A stretch of DNA of 64,000 nt from Oscillospiraceae bacterium (lineage in GTDB: Bacteria; Bacillota; Clostridia; Oscillospirales; Oscillospiraceae): positions 480,754 to 544,753 of the forward strand of contig CADCKQ010000001.1 of NCBI GenBank assembly GCA_902802045.1. The letters run 5' to 3'. Position 1 is the first letter of the stretch; each line of letters begins with the position of its first letter. Positions 43,205 through 48,319 of the stretch are shown in pieces. The notes under the pieces were generated by a model. That model searched no databases, was not told where the DNA came from, and was given only the letters and a program-made list of their open reading frames with translations. The position numbers and the translations under genes were made by a program.

Positions 43205-43345
43205 ATGGCAACAATTCTGATCTGCGATGATGAAAAGGATATTGTGTCAGCTTTGGAGAAAGTCGGTAATTGTGTTTTCACGGGGCTTATGATATTATTT
43301 GGCGAGCGAGTTCACAACCGTTATCGGAAGGGAGGCAAGCAATGA
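43205..43345 (+). pseudogene. N-terminal stub of a response regulator
   Basis: A 46-codon frame that begins MATILICDDEKDIVSALE, the exact opening of OmpR-type receiver domains (the two Asp of the acidic pocket are present). It then changes to unrelated sequence (KVGNCVFTGLM...) and stops. The phosphoacceptor Asp and the rest of the receiver are missing. The stop overlaps the next start (ATGA), so the stub may now serve as a leader cistron that feeds ribosomes into the following gene. Confidence 0.7.
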
Positions 43346-44607
43346 AGCAGAATCTTTTGAAAACCAATTTTCTGTACCGGACTTGGGAAGACTTTCCCAA
43401 TGTCATTCGATTCTGTTTCAGGATGGATCGCCCGATAGACGGTCAGATGCTCTGCCATGCGGTTCAGGAATCGATTGCCCGTTATCCTTACTTCTGTATA
43501 CGGGTGGAGCGGCACGGTGAAGAGTACAGCTTCTTTCACAACGACTCTCCGGTTCCCGTATTCCAGGGGCAGGATCCGGTCTGTCTTGGCAGCGAACAAA
43601 CGAACGGCCATTACCTGGCGGCCTCCTATCAGGACGATAAGATATGGTTTTATATCTATCATAATCTTTGTGATGCAAGAGGCTTCATCCCCTGGGTCAA
43701 GACGGTTTTGTACCTTTACCTTGTAAAGACCGCCGATCCGGCGCTCAGTCGGGAAGGCGTAAACCTTCCCGGCGAACCGTTTCTTACGAATGAGACGGAG
43801 GATCCCTATCAGACGCTGGTGCTGCCCGATGATTTGCAACCTTTCTATACACTGGAACCTGTCCCGGTCTTCGTTCCCGATATGCGATATGCTCAGGGCC
43901 CGGGACGGCTCGATTATTATGTCCGGGCAGACGGCAAGGAGTTTCTTAGCCTTTTCAAGACTAAGGACGGTTCACCAATCGTTTTGACAGCATGGTTCCT
44001 GAAAGAGATGATAAAGCATCTGTTTCCTGAACGGGATGGTCTCCCTGTTGCTGCAGCTATTCCCCATTCGCTCAGAAACGTACTACTGGGAGAGAATAAT
44101 TACCACGACCAGCTTACACCCCTGATGCTCCGGTATGATGAAAAGACCGAAAGACTTCCGATGGACAGGCAGTTCACGGCGAGCAGAGGATCGCTTTTTC
44201 TCCAGAGCTCGGAAGAAAACATGCTGTGCAGAATCAAATGGAATATTGACTTTGCTGAAGAACTGGAGCATCTGCCCAGCGTGGAAGAACGGCGGGCAGC
44301 CTCAAAGAGATCGGTAGAGCAGTTTATACGTAACCCGGAAACTATGTGTGTGACCTATCCCGGAAATACGCAATGGGGAGACCTGAGCCGATTTGTACGC
44401 GAAATGTATATGCATACCACGGTATTGTCTGCACCGCTGATGGTGGTGTTCCACCCTATGAACGGCAGTTTCTGGTTTACATTCCACCAGCGCGACAATA
44501 CATCAGCCTATGCGGATACCTTTGTTGCGCTACTGAAAAAACACGGAATCGGTGCAGAAGTAATGGGATGCGCTGCACCGGAAGACTGCTCGGTATACAT
44601 TCCGTAA
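43342..44607 (+). CDS. condensation-superfamily (CoA-dependent acyltransferase-like) protein
   Basis: A 421-residue protein with the two-lobed chloramphenicol-acetyltransferase/condensation fold. It has MDRPIDGQMLCHAVQESIARYP near the start, then YHNLCDARGF at about 120 in place of the HHxxxDG active-site motif. The first His is Tyr, while the second His, the Asp and the Gly remain. Similar stand-alone proteins include PapA-like and alcohol-acyltransferase relatives. The start at 43342 overlaps the response-regulator stub stop by four bases and follows AAGGGAGG. It lies directly before the MATE-ATPase fusion, hinting that it makes or modifies the exported molecule. Confidence 0.75.
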   Translation: MKQNLLKTNFLYRTWEDFPNVIRFCFRMDRPIDGQMLCHAVQESIARYPYFCIRVERHGEEYSFFHNDSPVPVFQGQDPVCLGSEQTNGHYLAASYQDDKIWFYIYHNLCDARGFIPWVKTVLYLYLVKTADPALSREGVNLPGEPFLTNETEDPYQTLVLPDDLQPFYTLEPVPVFVPDMRYAQGPGRLDYYVRADGKEFLSLFKTKDGSPIVLTAWFLKEMIKHLFPERDGLPVAAAIPHSLRNVLLGENNYHDQLTPLMLRYDEKTERLPMDRQFTASRGSLFLQSSEENMLCRIKWNIDFAEELEHLPSVEERRAASKRSVEQFIRNPETMCVTYPGNTQWGDLSRFVREMYMHTTVLSAPLMVVFHPMNGSFWFTFHQRDNTSAYADTFVALLKKHGIGAEVMGCAAPEDCSVYIP

Positions 44608-44651: not shown

Positions 44652-46439
44652 ATGCTGATCGGAAAACGAAGGCGTGACGACGAAATCCTTTCAGCGCTTT
44701 TCTTCCGGCTGTTGCCGGTCCAAGTGGGACTGGTGGCCATGGAATCGATCAACGCCATCATCGACGGCGTCGTGGCGGCGCGCTTTATCGATCCGGCCGC
44801 GGTTGGCGTCATCGGATTGTATTACACTGTGTTGCGCATTTTGGAGGCGATCGGCGGCCTCCTGCTGAGCGGAACCGCAGTTCTCTGCGGAAGATATCTT
44901 GGCGCCGGAAATCTCGAAAGAACAAGAGGCGTCTGTTCTCTAAGCATATCGGTGGCCTTTCTGGCGGGCGCTTTACTCACGATACTCAGTTTTGCTGCTC
45001 CCCGCGGAATTGCCATACTTCTGGGTGCAGATGCGAATCTGGCCGGTGATCTCGCCGGCTACGTGAAAGGATACGGCATCGGCATCCTGCCGCAACTGCT
45101 GGGACAGCAGTTTGCAGCTTTCCTGCTGCTCGAGCGGCAGGAAAGACGCGGCCGTTTGGGGATCCTTGCAATGATTCTCAGTAATGCATGGTTTGACCTG
45201 CTGCTTGTGATCGAGTGGAAAATGGGCGCCTTCGGTCTTGCGCTGGCTACCTCCGTAAGCAACTGGGTGTATTTTATTATTACCGCGGGGTATTATCTGA
45301 CAAACAGAGCACAACTGAAGCCGAATCTGAAGCTCATCGACTTGAGGGAACTGCCGAAAATCGCGAGGATCGGATTTCCCTCTGCCTTACTGGTAGGATG
45401 CCTGGCGGCGCGAAGCCTTGCACTCAACCGGCTTCTGCTCACTTATGCGGGGGAGGACGGACTCTCCGCGCTCTCTGCATTTAATATGATATGCAGTCTG
45501 ATACTGGCTGTGGCGATCGGGACAGGGGCGACGGTGCGGATGCTCTCAAGTGTGTTTATAGGCGAGGAGAACCGCGAGGGATTGAAACAACTGATGAAGA
45601 TCGTTTTCACAAAGGTGATCGCGTTTGTACTGGTGCTGACACTTGCTGTGGTGCTGCTGGCCCCGCTTTTGGCCGGTATCTTCTTCCCGGACCGCGCCAG
45701 CAACGTCTTCCGCCTGACCAGACAGCTTATAGTGATTTACGGATGCTTCATCCCTCTCATGCTAACATGCATCGTATACAGCAGTTATGCGCAAGCGGCG
45801 GGGCACCACCTTTATGACAATCTGGTCTCTCTTTCTGACGGCTTTTTCGGCGTGGTCATTCCGGCTGCTCTCCTTGCGCCGAGATTCGGTGCGCTTGGCG
45901 TATGGACAGCCTTTGCAGTATCGCTATTGATCACCGCTTCCATAACCCTGGCGTATATTCTGATCCGTTCAAAAAAATGGCCGGGGAACGCGGATGAGTG
46001 GCTTTTGCTGAAACCTGAGTTCGGCCGAAGCGAGCATCTGGTAATGACTCTGCACAACATGGACGAAGTCATGAAGAGCTCCGGACAGGTTGAAGAATTT
46101 TGTCTTGCCCACGATCTTCCCCTGAAGCTCAGTATGCATGCCGGCCTGTGCATAGAAGAAATGGGAGGAAATATCGTCCAGCACGGATTTCATGCGGATA
46201 AGAGAGCACATTCCATTGAAGTTCGCATCGTGCTCCGGGAAAACGGAGTCATCCTTATCATCAAGGATGACTGCATCCCCTTCAATCCAAAGGAGTTGTA
46301 TGAGATAACAAAACCCGATTCCGAGGATCCCCTGGCCAACATAGGGATCCGCATGGTGTTCGGCCTTGCCGAGGAAGTGGATTATCAGAATCTGCTCGGC
46401 CTGAATGTGCTGACGGTCCGGTTAACGGATATCTGCTGA
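44652..46439 (+). CDS. MATE-family transporter fused to a C-terminal GHKL (anti-sigma/RsbW-like) ATPase domain
   Basis: A 595-residue two-domain protein. Residues 1-440 form a MATE/polysaccharide-flippase-type transporter of about 12 helices (VQVGLVAMESINAIIDG at the start). Residues about 455-595 form a cytoplasmic HATPase_c_2 domain. Its N-box is CIEEMGGNIVQHGF, the G1-like box is IIKDDCIPFNP and the G2-like segment is NIGIRMVFGLAEEVDY. Such domains normally belong to RsbW/SpoIIAB-type serine kinases that are opposed by SpoIIE-type phosphatases, and exactly such a phosphatase is encoded next. A MATE transporter carrying this domain is very unusual. Domain boundaries are estimates. Confidence 0.87.
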   Translation: MLIGKRRRDDEILSALFFRLLPVQVGLVAMESINAIIDGVVAARFIDPAAVGVIGLYYTVLRILEAIGGLLLSGTAVLCGRYLGAGNLERTRGVCSLSISVAFLAGALLTILSFAAPRGIAILLGADANLAGDLAGYVKGYGIGILPQLLGQQFAAFLLLERQERRGRLGILAMILSNAWFDLLLVIEWKMGAFGLALATSVSNWVYFIITAGYYLTNRAQLKPNLKLIDLRELPKIARIGFPSALLVGCLAARSLALNRLLLTYAGEDGLSALSAFNMICSLILAVAIGTGATVRMLSSVFIGEENREGLKQLMKIVFTKVIAFVLVLTLAVVLLAPLLAGIFFPDRASNVFRLTRQLIVIYGCFIPLMLTCIVYSSYAQAAGHHLYDNLVSLSDGFFGVVIPAALLAPRFGALGVWTAFAVSLLITASITLAYILIRSKKWPGNADEWLLLKPEFGRSEHLVMTLHNMDEVMKSSGQVEEFCLAHDLPLKLSMHAGLCIEEMGGNIVQHGFHADKRAHSIEVRIVLRENGVILIIKDDCIPFNPKELYEITKPDSEDPLANIGIRMVFGLAEEVDYQNLLGLNVLTVRLTDIC

Positions 46440-46473
46440 ATAAGCACTTGAAATGATCCTGAAGGTGAAGCTT

Positions 46474-48240
46474 ATGAAAAAGAACGCGCTTTTCACACAA
46501 ATCACGATTTTCTTTCTGATCGGTCTGACAATGACAGCGCTCCTGTCCGGGACGATCATGAAGAGAATCGCGGATAAAAACGTACTCCGGGAAAGGGACG
46601 CTCTGTCCTCCGGGATCCTTGCGGATGTCGAGAAATCCATGAAAGAATACCAGGCTTACGAATGGGTGTTCGACTATCTGCTTGTGCACAGCTCGGACGG
46701 GTTGGATCTGGAATATGACAGTTCCGAGAAAACGGACATCAAGGAGGCGGAGTTTCTGAGAGGTCAGCCCGGTCTGACACTGACGGGGGCGACGGCGGAT
46801 CAGCTTAACAAGCTGTCTGCAGAGGAGCAGAAAATCTTTGCTGAAATCATCTACAACCACTGGATGCGCCGCTTGAATGATATGAAACGGTCTTATGCCG
46901 CCAGTTTCCTTTATATTGTCGCGGTGGATGACAACTACGCAGACGGCACCTTCCTGCTTACTGCCTCTGACGGAACAAGAGCGCGGGGAACCGGTTTTGA
47001 TGATGCCTACATATTGGGGAAACAGGTACAGGTCACTCCCGACCAGGCGGAGACCTTCCGGAATCTCAAAGTACAGAACGACCGCTTCGTTTATTCACAG
47101 GATTATGCAGACCGGTATCGCTATCTTTTCAGAATCAATGAGATGAACGTCATCACCGGCATGACTTTCGAAATCGCTTCGATCCGCTCTGATGTTGAAA
47201 ACCAGCTGCTTCCAAACGTCACCTACAATACGGCGCTGCAGTTCCTGCTCTCAGCGTTTTACCTGATCTATGTCTTCTTTTTTGCTTTCAAACCGCTGAA
47301 AAAGATCAAGGAGAACGTTCAGGAATATGCTGAAACAAAGAACAGCGAAAAGGTTCGGGCTCAGCTCAGCGAGATCCATTATAAAAATGAAATCGGAGAT
47401 CTCGCCAGGGGCGTTTCCGCAATGACGGAGGAAATCGATTCTCATCTCCTGGAGATTCAAAGGATAACAACGGAAAAGGAACGCATCGGCGCGGAGCTGA
47501 ACATTGCAAAAAAGATACAGGCCGATATGCTGCCGAACATCTTTCCGCCCTTTCCTCAAATCGGCGAGTTTAACATATACGCGACCATGCGTCCCGCAAA
47601 AGAGGTAGGCGGAGATTTCTACGATTTCTTTATGGTGGACAAGACGCACATCGCCCTGGTAATAGCGGATGTTTCCGGCAAGGGTGTGCCTGCCGCCCTG
47701 TTCATGGTGATTGCAAAGAGCGCGATTAAAAACCGCACCATGCTCGGAGGAACGCTCGGAGAGATCTTTCGGGATGTCAACAACCAGCTCTGTGCTAACA
47801 ACACAGCGGACTTCTTTGTCACAGTCTGGATGGCCATCGTTGACATTGAGACCGGGAAGGGCATCTCCATTAACGCAGGGCATGAGCATTCGGTTGTCCG
47901 AAGAGCAGACGGCAATTTTGAACTTCAGCGATATCAGCATTCACTTCCTCTTGCTGTCATGGACGGAACGAAGTTTAAAGAACGTGAGTTCAAGCTGAAT
48001 CCCGGAGATCGGATCTTTGTCTACACTGATGGAGTTCCGGAAGCCAACAATCAGAAGGATGAGCTATTCGGGACAGACCGTATGCTTTTCTCGCTGAATC
48101 AGGATCCGGAAGCCCCGCTGCAGGACATTCTTCATCAGCTTCAGAAGGATATCGACCGCTTTGCCGAAGGCGCGGAGCAGTTTGACGATATCACAATGCT
48201 GATCTTTGATTATCTCGGCGAAAACGGAGAACAAAAATAA
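46474..48240 (+). CDS. transmembrane SpoIIE-type PP2C serine phosphatase
   Basis: A 588-residue signalling phosphatase. One helix near 5-27, an external sensor of about 215 residues, and a second helix near 248-270 (LQFLLSAFYLIYVFFFAF) are followed by a HAMP-like linker and coiled coil (TTEKERIGAELNIAKKIQADMLP). The PP2C domain has its metal motifs in order: AKEVGGDFYDFF, ADVSGKGVPAALFM, YTDGVPEANN and FDDITMLIF. ATG at 46474 is preferred since AAGGTG precedes it; an upstream in-frame ATG has no ribosome site. It starts 34 bases after the MATE-ATPase gene. No STAS antagonist gene is present in the window. Confidence 0.92.
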   Translation: MKKNALFTQITIFFLIGLTMTALLSGTIMKRIADKNVLRERDALSSGILADVEKSMKEYQAYEWVFDYLLVHSSDGLDLEYDSSEKTDIKEAEFLRGQPGLTLTGATADQLNKLSAEEQKIFAEIIYNHWMRRLNDMKRSYAASFLYIVAVDDNYADGTFLLTASDGTRARGTGFDDAYILGKQVQVTPDQAETFRNLKVQNDRFVYSQDYADRYRYLFRINEMNVITGMTFEIASIRSDVENQLLPNVTYNTALQFLLSAFYLIYVFFFAFKPLKKIKENVQEYAETKNSEKVRAQLSEIHYKNEIGDLARGVSAMTEEIDSHLLEIQRITTEKERIGAELNIAKKIQADMLPNIFPPFPQIGEFNIYATMRPAKEVGGDFYDFFMVDKTHIALVIADVSGKGVPAALFMVIAKSAIKNRTMLGGTLGEIFRDVNNQLCANNTADFFVTVWMAIVDIETGKGISINAGHEHSVVRRADGNFELQRYQHSLPLAVMDGTKFKEREFKLNPGDRIFVYTDGVPEANNQKDELFGTDRMLFSLNQDPEAPLQDILHQLQKDIDRFAEGAEQFDDITMLIFDYLGENGEQK

Positions 48241-48262
48241 AAGATCTGCCGTAAAAAGGTAT

Positions 48263-48319
48263 AAAAGAACTCAGTAAAAAATGCCCTAAAGCATTGAAAT
48301 TACTGAGTTCTTTTATATT
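48263..48319. terminator. long hairpin terminator, copy of a repeated element
   Basis: An imperfect long stem (AAAAGAACTCAGTAA and its complement) encloses a small ATGC/GCAT hairpin and ends with TTTTAT. Bases 48263-48309 match 60594-60640 at 46 of 47 positions. It sits between the convergent phosphatase and sugar transporter genes. Confidence 0.85.

Follow-up and report, generated by a model that had tools for sequence, protein, structure and literature searches.

The 64,000-nucleotide window analyzed here, positions 480754-544753 of contig 1 of an Oscillospiraceae bacterium genome (G000; 2.03 Mb in 11 contigs, 95.75% complete), contains a gene for a MATE transporter whose C-terminus is an RsbW/SpoIIAB-type ATPase domain and, after it, one for a membrane-bound SpoIIE-type phosphatase. 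With a probability that we put at roughly 0.55, the two proteins belong to a partner-switching circuit, the fusion on its kinase side and the phosphatase on its phosphatase side, and this circuit would gate the transporter itself. The features concerned are:

44652-46439, + strand: MATE fusion gene, a MATE transporter with an RsbW/SpoIIAB-type domain at the C-terminus
44652..45971, + strand: MATE part of the fusion, residues 1-440 (MatE, 5.5e-19; AlphaFold2 model; Foldseek match 3wbn)
46032..46427, + strand: RsbW/SpoIIAB-type ATPase domain, approximately residues 461-592 (N-box, G1 and G2 motifs)
46453..48240, + strand: membrane-bound SpoIIE-type PP2C phosphatase (SpoIIE, 2e-46; hydrophobic segments; Asp motifs)

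Pfam matches MatE in two stretches of the fusion protein, as expected for the two repeats of a MATE transporter, and the AlphaFold2 model of the whole protein has about 12 membrane helices in this part. Its best Foldseek match in the PDB is 3wbn, with a target TM of 0.85 over 432 columns. By this modelled fold the MATE part is a complete MATE (MOP superfamily) transporter, for which cation-coupled export is predicted. The C-terminal domain contains an N-box (E502, E503, N507), a G1 box (K538-D-D-C-I-P-F-N-P546) and a G2 motif (N563-I-G565), and in structure comparison its fold lies nearer to RsbW/SpoIIAB than to histidine kinases, the Z gap disfavouring a histidine-kinase-type identity. Pfam, the model, Foldseek and the motifs together confirm the first-pass annotation of this gene, made from the DNA alone, as a MATE protein with a C-terminal anti-sigma-type ATPase domain. 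E503 and N507 are present in the window protein and invariant across 75 aligned sequences, and all four ATP-site residues tested (E503, N507, D539, G565) are intact in the window's domain, which we infer from these residues to be kinase-competent. An assembly join as the origin of the fusion, which the annotation had named as grounds for abandoning its proposal, is excluded by a cluster of 99% identical proteins (112 member sequences) and by orthologues of 68-95% identity with the same layout; the fusion is widespread, as described below.

In the phosphatase, two hydrophobic segments enclose about 225 residues, with the outer sensor region at about 46558-47232 and the PP2C domain at about 47641-48210. 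The motifs GGDFYDFF, ADVSGKG, YTDGV and FDDITML contain the aspartates expected of a PP2C enzyme. Together with the SpoIIE match, these features agree with the earlier description of a downstream membrane-bound SpoIIE-type phosphatase with its own external sensor. Its best NCBIfam match is SiaA, well under the cut-off (58.2 vs 700 bits), and contig 7 encodes a second phosphatase that is 39% identical to it.

The remaining components of a partner-switching system lie elsewhere in this genome, which encodes three SpoIIE proteins. The cut-off is passed by two STAS proteins. One is a STAS-APH protein encoded on contig 3, of about 400 aa with an uncertain start; the other, of 99 aa, is encoded on contig 1. 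Both read YISSAGLR, with a phosphorylatable serine. The annotation had noted that no STAS or sigma gene is local and that the target would be elsewhere or of another fold; the two STAS genes do lie elsewhere in the genome, neither of them beside the window's pair. HATPase_c_2 passes the cut-off in the window fusion and in one other protein, a SpoIIE-HATPase encoded near the 99-aa STAS gene; two further, weaker matches fall under it. Sigma70_r2 matches seven frames of the genome, one with 414 aa and the others with 170-212 aa, and because none is of SigB or SigF length, the classical sigma output of the circuit appears to be missing. This bears on a reading of the domain as a membrane-tethered anti-sigma factor, with SpoIIE and STAS releasing a sigma factor held at the transporter. 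Such a role would suit a domain with an anti-sigma-type fold and residues and would give SpoIIE and STAS their classical partner, yet a sigma factor of the appropriate length is lacking among the matches in the domain's own, 95.75% complete genome (the loci of relatives were not searched for sigma genes). We consider this reading highly improbable and, on sequence grounds, it is unlikely that the window domain binds and inhibits a sigma factor.

In the proposed gating circuit, a dephosphorylated STAS protein encoded elsewhere (STAS-APH on contig 3 or the 99-aa protein on contig 1) would dock on the cytoplasmic domain of the transporter. The fused domain would phosphorylate the STAS serine, whereupon STAS would be released, and the phosphatase would sense an outside signal, remove the phosphate and restore docking. 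Put most economically, the domain would bind a STAS protein and this would alter transport, while phosphatase and kinase activity would set the amount of unphosphorylated STAS available. Docking would turn transport on, by analogy with the relief of RsbW inhibition by STAS; the sign of this effect is the least secure part of the proposal. Where a relative's domain has decayed, the kinase would come from a separate RsbW or a SpoIIE-RsbW fusion, leaving docking as the only role of the domain on the transporter. The analysis shows the components, their predicted fold, their residues and the gene linkage; STAS binding, phosphorylation, gating and the gating sign are what we infer here.

The genomic association of the fusion with partner-switching genes was examined in a family sample of 40 regions around fusions (41 fusion open reading frames by profile), in a named-contig set of 80 loci (80 fusion open reading frames in 79 of them) and in 40 control regions around the unfused MATE genes of the same family sample that best match the query, using in-house profiles on neighbours within 8 kb. 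In the family sample, STAS is found near 16/41 fusions, SpoIIE near 16/41, a separate RsbW-like gene near 15/41, and STAS or SpoIIE near 21/41; the corresponding counts are 16/80, 8/80, 5/80 and 21/80 in the named-contig set, and 0/40 in every class for the control MATEs. Counted by genome, STAS or SpoIIE linkage is 17/28 for fusions vs 0/31 for controls, and with full 3-kb flanks required, STAS and SpoIIE are each at 8/29 vs 0/27 (p 0.005 each; the Fisher and rank tests used here treat related genomes as independent). A STAS gene stands directly upstream of the fusion, at a spacing of -8 to 56 bp by our open-reading-frame calls, in nine loci (L073, L083, L084, L086, L138, L143, L148, L151, and L154). 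Complete sets also exist, such as L146, where a second genome of the window's genus has MATE-HATPase, SpoIIE-HATPase and STAS genes contiguous and in that order. Pfam confirms the submitted STAS, SpoIIE and separate HATPase_c_2 parts from L130, L138, L143, L146, L151, L154, and L156. Furthermore, genomes with the fusion have a median of 3 STAS genes (31 genomes) vs 1 in those without (169 genomes; p 4.9e-12). The search for the fusion and tabulation of its neighbours had been proposed in the annotation, and the resulting association with phosphatase, STAS and RsbW-like genes, the upstream STAS loci and the order in L146 support the idea that the fused domain and the phosphatase belong to a partner-switching set, as it had supposed.

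These counts also allow a further reading to be weighed, in which the domain is an accessory stability or energy sensor that binds ATP and is unrelated to STAS, its adjacency to the phosphatase being incidental. The fusions with neither STAS nor SpoIIE within 8 kb, 20/41 in the family sample and 59/80 in the named-contig set (some contigs end early), are what such a sensor would lead one to expect. However, the contrast between fusions and control MATEs, the closely spaced STAS-fusion pairs and the STAS excess at the genome level all count against it, and we hold it to be quite improbable.

A third alternative is that the transporter acts as a receptor, whose substrate or transport state controls the fused kinase, which in turn phosphorylates a STAS protein with its output elsewhere. 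With three truncated domains set aside from a total of 121, the other 118 were scored for E503, N507, D539, and G565. All four residues are kept in the window domain and in 94/118 relatives, and the STAS genes of the window's own genome are distant from the fusion, both of which fit a receptor. Yet 24/118 retain the domain despite the loss of at least one ATP-site residue, never E503 (22/40 in the family sample, 2/78 in the named set). The sole invariant residues in these 24 decayed domains are E502, E503, and N585, while N507, D539, and G565 vary. We take E503 to be the counterpart of the SpoIIAB catalytic base that faces the STAS serine, and the lost residues to be those that hold Mg and ATP; the pattern of decay would be that expected of a STAS-docking domain without catalysis. 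Decayed domains weigh against the receptor because a domain that does not phosphorylate cannot send a signal, and the symporter-borne domains described below, with a residue other than Asn at the Mg-Asn position in 103/110, point in the same direction. The receptor arrangement is in our judgment rather unlikely. The annotation had left two options, that the switch gates export or that transport controls the switch; the first is favoured and the second disfavoured, since a domain with lost ATP-site residues can hardly be a kinase. The other finding that it had named as refuting, the absence of ATP-binding residues in all relatives, did not come true: a dead ATPase domain is rejected for the window protein and its close relatives, and applies in part to the 24 wider relatives.

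Several observations weigh against the gating circuit, the unlinked fusions counted above among them. No STAS gene adjoins the window's fusion/phosphatase pair, and the close orthologues (68-99% identity), found only as proteins without context, do not bear on the phosphatase adjacency. In several of the complete modules, the fused domain falls under the Pfam cut-off (L138, L143, and L146) or is uncalled (L151), and exceeds it only in L154. In the window clade, Cys stands in place of the G1 glycine and usually Asn in place of the first G2 glycine, because of which ATP binding or turnover may be weak in the domain of this clade. The window domain itself keeps the G1 Asp and the second G2 Gly, with Cys541 in place of the G1 Gly and Asn563 in place of the first G2 Gly. 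Both the G1 and G2 glycines are kept in 18/18 separate RsbW-like domains from fusion loci (the 19-row profile of these includes L082, a fused-type fragment behind a stop that was excluded from residue counts). Finally, a separate kinase is nearby in 10/22 decayed vs 4/18 intact domains of the family sample, which is not significant (p 0.19), and the pooled comparison of 11/24 vs 7/94 (p 3.6e-5) is confounded by the selection of the two sets; the link between a decayed fused domain and a separate kinase nearby is suggestive only.

The fusion has 242 homologues at E <= 1e-3 (7,996 candidates scored), and both Pfam domains are present in 119/120 among the homologues listed. It occurs at 230 places in one-per-species genomes, the best 80 of which were kept as the named-contig set. 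Those best 80 include four strain-named Butyrivibrio or Pseudobutyrivibrio records that are not marked as metagenome-assembled genomes (MAGs; L027, L035, L044, and L049). Many of the others are Bacillota MAGs from ruminant guts, and some MAGs bear the names Spirochaetes/Spirochaetales or Chloroflexi, the last-named of which may be mis-binned. The fusion is full-length (row beginning no later than residue 40 and extending to residue 545) in at least 31/200 genomes of the window's family, its own included. In a tree of 178 MATE parts (quick method, SH-aLRT support only), the fusions cluster in a single group. Of its 125 rows, 122 are fusions by profile; the other three are one decayed tail with EEM, one row cut at a contig end and one unplaced tail. 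Because 4 label changes were counted, 3 of them forced by starred branches, the tree does not establish a strictly single origin. No study of a MATE-RsbW fusion was found in the literature searched (subscription papers outside its scope). The product name given by the JGI to homologues P0053 and P0085, 'Na+-driven multidrug efflux pump/anti-sigma regulatory factor (Ser/Thr protein kinase)', denotes the same domain make-up and is a product label only.

Additional domains accompany some fusions. HD-CE (PF24391) is fused C-terminally to MATE-HATPase in 22/80 loci and is encoded by a neighbouring gene in 8 more by in-house profile (among them L021, L023, L025, and L039; L016, L022, L027, and L032), with a Pfam check of L023 and L032. 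STAS-APH and STAS-APH-HATPase proteins recur beside fusions (L001:1474-2664, L077:6946-8145, L083:10772-11962, and L130:6410-7951).

RsbW-like domains appear to be borne by other transporters as well. L152 (6279-7871) encodes a Na+/dicarboxylate symporter that has an additional domain at its N-terminus. The symporter gene stands between those for STAS and the MATE fusion, and the symporter's family is large, with 354 homologues at E <= 1e-3, 120 of them listed. The N-domain, aligned from 110 symporters, matches the separate RsbW-like domains (hhalign probability 96, E 3.6e-9) and matches the MATE-borne domain directly only weakly (probability 1-4); Pfam does not call it in one protein tested. 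The first glutamate is present in 110/110; at the second position 98 have Glu and 12 have Asp, and 7/110 keep Asn at the Mg-Asn position. Among N-domain symporters, 10/20 have STAS or SpoIIE within 8 kb, vs 3/20 among plain symporters (p 0.04), and the three control matches are STAS + RsbW-like pairs. Symporters with a decayed domain of this kind were seen in L152:6279-7871, L136, L077, L252, and L255. An ABC ATPase beside MATE fusions (L032:7721-8812; relatives L020, L026, and L144) has a possible RsbW-like C-terminal tail, found by in-house profile and phmmer. With hhalign probabilities of only 3% and 40%, and Pfam not calling the tail, this assignment is weak. More broadly, and at a little below even odds, partner switching may act as a direct allosteric gate on transport, with RsbW-derived domains recruited by two or more transporter folds: MATE transporters (C-terminal), Na+/dicarboxylate symporters (N-terminal), and perhaps ABC ATPases. 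STAS would dock on these domains, often without kinase chemistry, and sensor phosphatases would open or close transporters without touching transcription.

The circuit shares with RsbU/RsbV/RsbW and SpoIIE/SpoIIAA/SpoIIAB of Bacillus a SpoIIE-type phosphatase, a STAS protein with an acceptor serine and a domain of RsbW/SpoIIAB fold. Unlike those systems, the kinase-type domain is here covalent to a transporter, in a genome without a SigB/SigF-length Sigma70_r2 match. Partner switching is known chiefly for the release of sigma factors, and its outputs beyond this are few and partly unresolved in the excerpt of one source (PMC8256260). Among those it describes, SypA in biofilm formation and BtrUVW in type III secretion use an RsbW-type kinase, STAS and a PP2C phosphatase with an output other than the classical sigma factor, as does SiaA/SiaB, compared here by NCBIfam name and PDB title only; as far as these materials go, none has a transporter-borne kinase domain (PMC8256260). 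SulP/SLC26 anion transporters carry a covalent domain of the same toolkit, a cytoplasmic STAS; there the STAS half is fused, whereas here it is the RsbW half, and the excerpt describes no kinase/phosphatase pair (PMC8256260). MlaFB offers a precedent: the STAS protein MlaB acts directly on a transporter, and a phosphomimetic Thr52Glu change lowered binding, phosphoregulation being posed as an open question (PMC7367683). However, MlaB binds the ABC ATPase MlaF itself, the transporter class is different, and the excerpted text names no RsbW domain or phosphatase (PMC7367683). If the gating circuit is real, it would let an outside signal act on transport directly and post-translationally, in bacteria that are, by their named records, largely of ruminant guts. 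It would also explain why STAS, SpoIIE and RsbW parts occur in a genome that lacks a sigma factor of SigB/SigF length. The standing of these fusions as a class of STAS-gated transporters hinges on STAS binding and its effects on transport. The fusion should be testable in culture, since strain-named Butyrivibrio and Pseudobutyrivibrio records carry it.

Around the fusion and phosphatase, two further features complete the locus:

43342..44607, + strand: condensation/acyltransferase-like gene, 421 aa from ATG 43342 (label by eye)
48261..48316, + strand: 17-bp perfect inverted repeat (48261-48277 / 48300-48316), 3' of the phosphatase gene, read by eye

The condensation-like gene, the fusion gene and the phosphatase gene are closely spaced on the + strand, with gaps of 44 and 13 bp, and likely form one operon with the condensation-like gene first. 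The inverted repeat is likely a two-way terminator that closes it; the repeat exceeds the loop limit of the pattern scan for promoters and terminators and is hence unlisted there, and matches in that scan were no more numerous than in shuffles. The genes flanking the trio are on the opposite strand, a lysA-type decarboxylase and a small lipoprotein-like gene upstream and a sugar-symporter-like gene downstream (lipoprotein-like and sugar-symporter-like labels assigned by eye).

The last 420 residues of the condensation-like protein have no Pfam match even at E 10, and none of the 29 homologues found has an informative name. For three of these, the longest contig is equal in size (4271, 4848, and 11183) to that of fusion homologues, which hints indirectly at conserved linkage. 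In L086:12697-13974, a member of the condensation-like family precedes an unfused MATE gene. Elsewhere (L138, L140, L143, L148, L149, L151, and L154), a variable gene lies between fusion and phosphatase; by eye these genes are GNAT-like, GH3-like, formyltransferase-like and of other kinds, which would fit one switch serving a range of small-molecule-modifying enzymes. Immediately ahead of the condensation-like gene, window positions 43205-43342 contain the start of a response-regulator-like frame (MATILICDDEKDIVSALEK..., by eye) that ends after 46 codons and looks like a remnant.

In loci L002 and L007 on contig 1 of the same genome (about 114-117 kb), SpoIIE-HATPase and STAS genes have peptide-export genes of NHLM-like type and small leader-like proteins as neighbours (by eye), and in L156 a MATE fusion lies close to a similar gene (L156:10881-11351). 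Partner switching may also serve peptide secretion.

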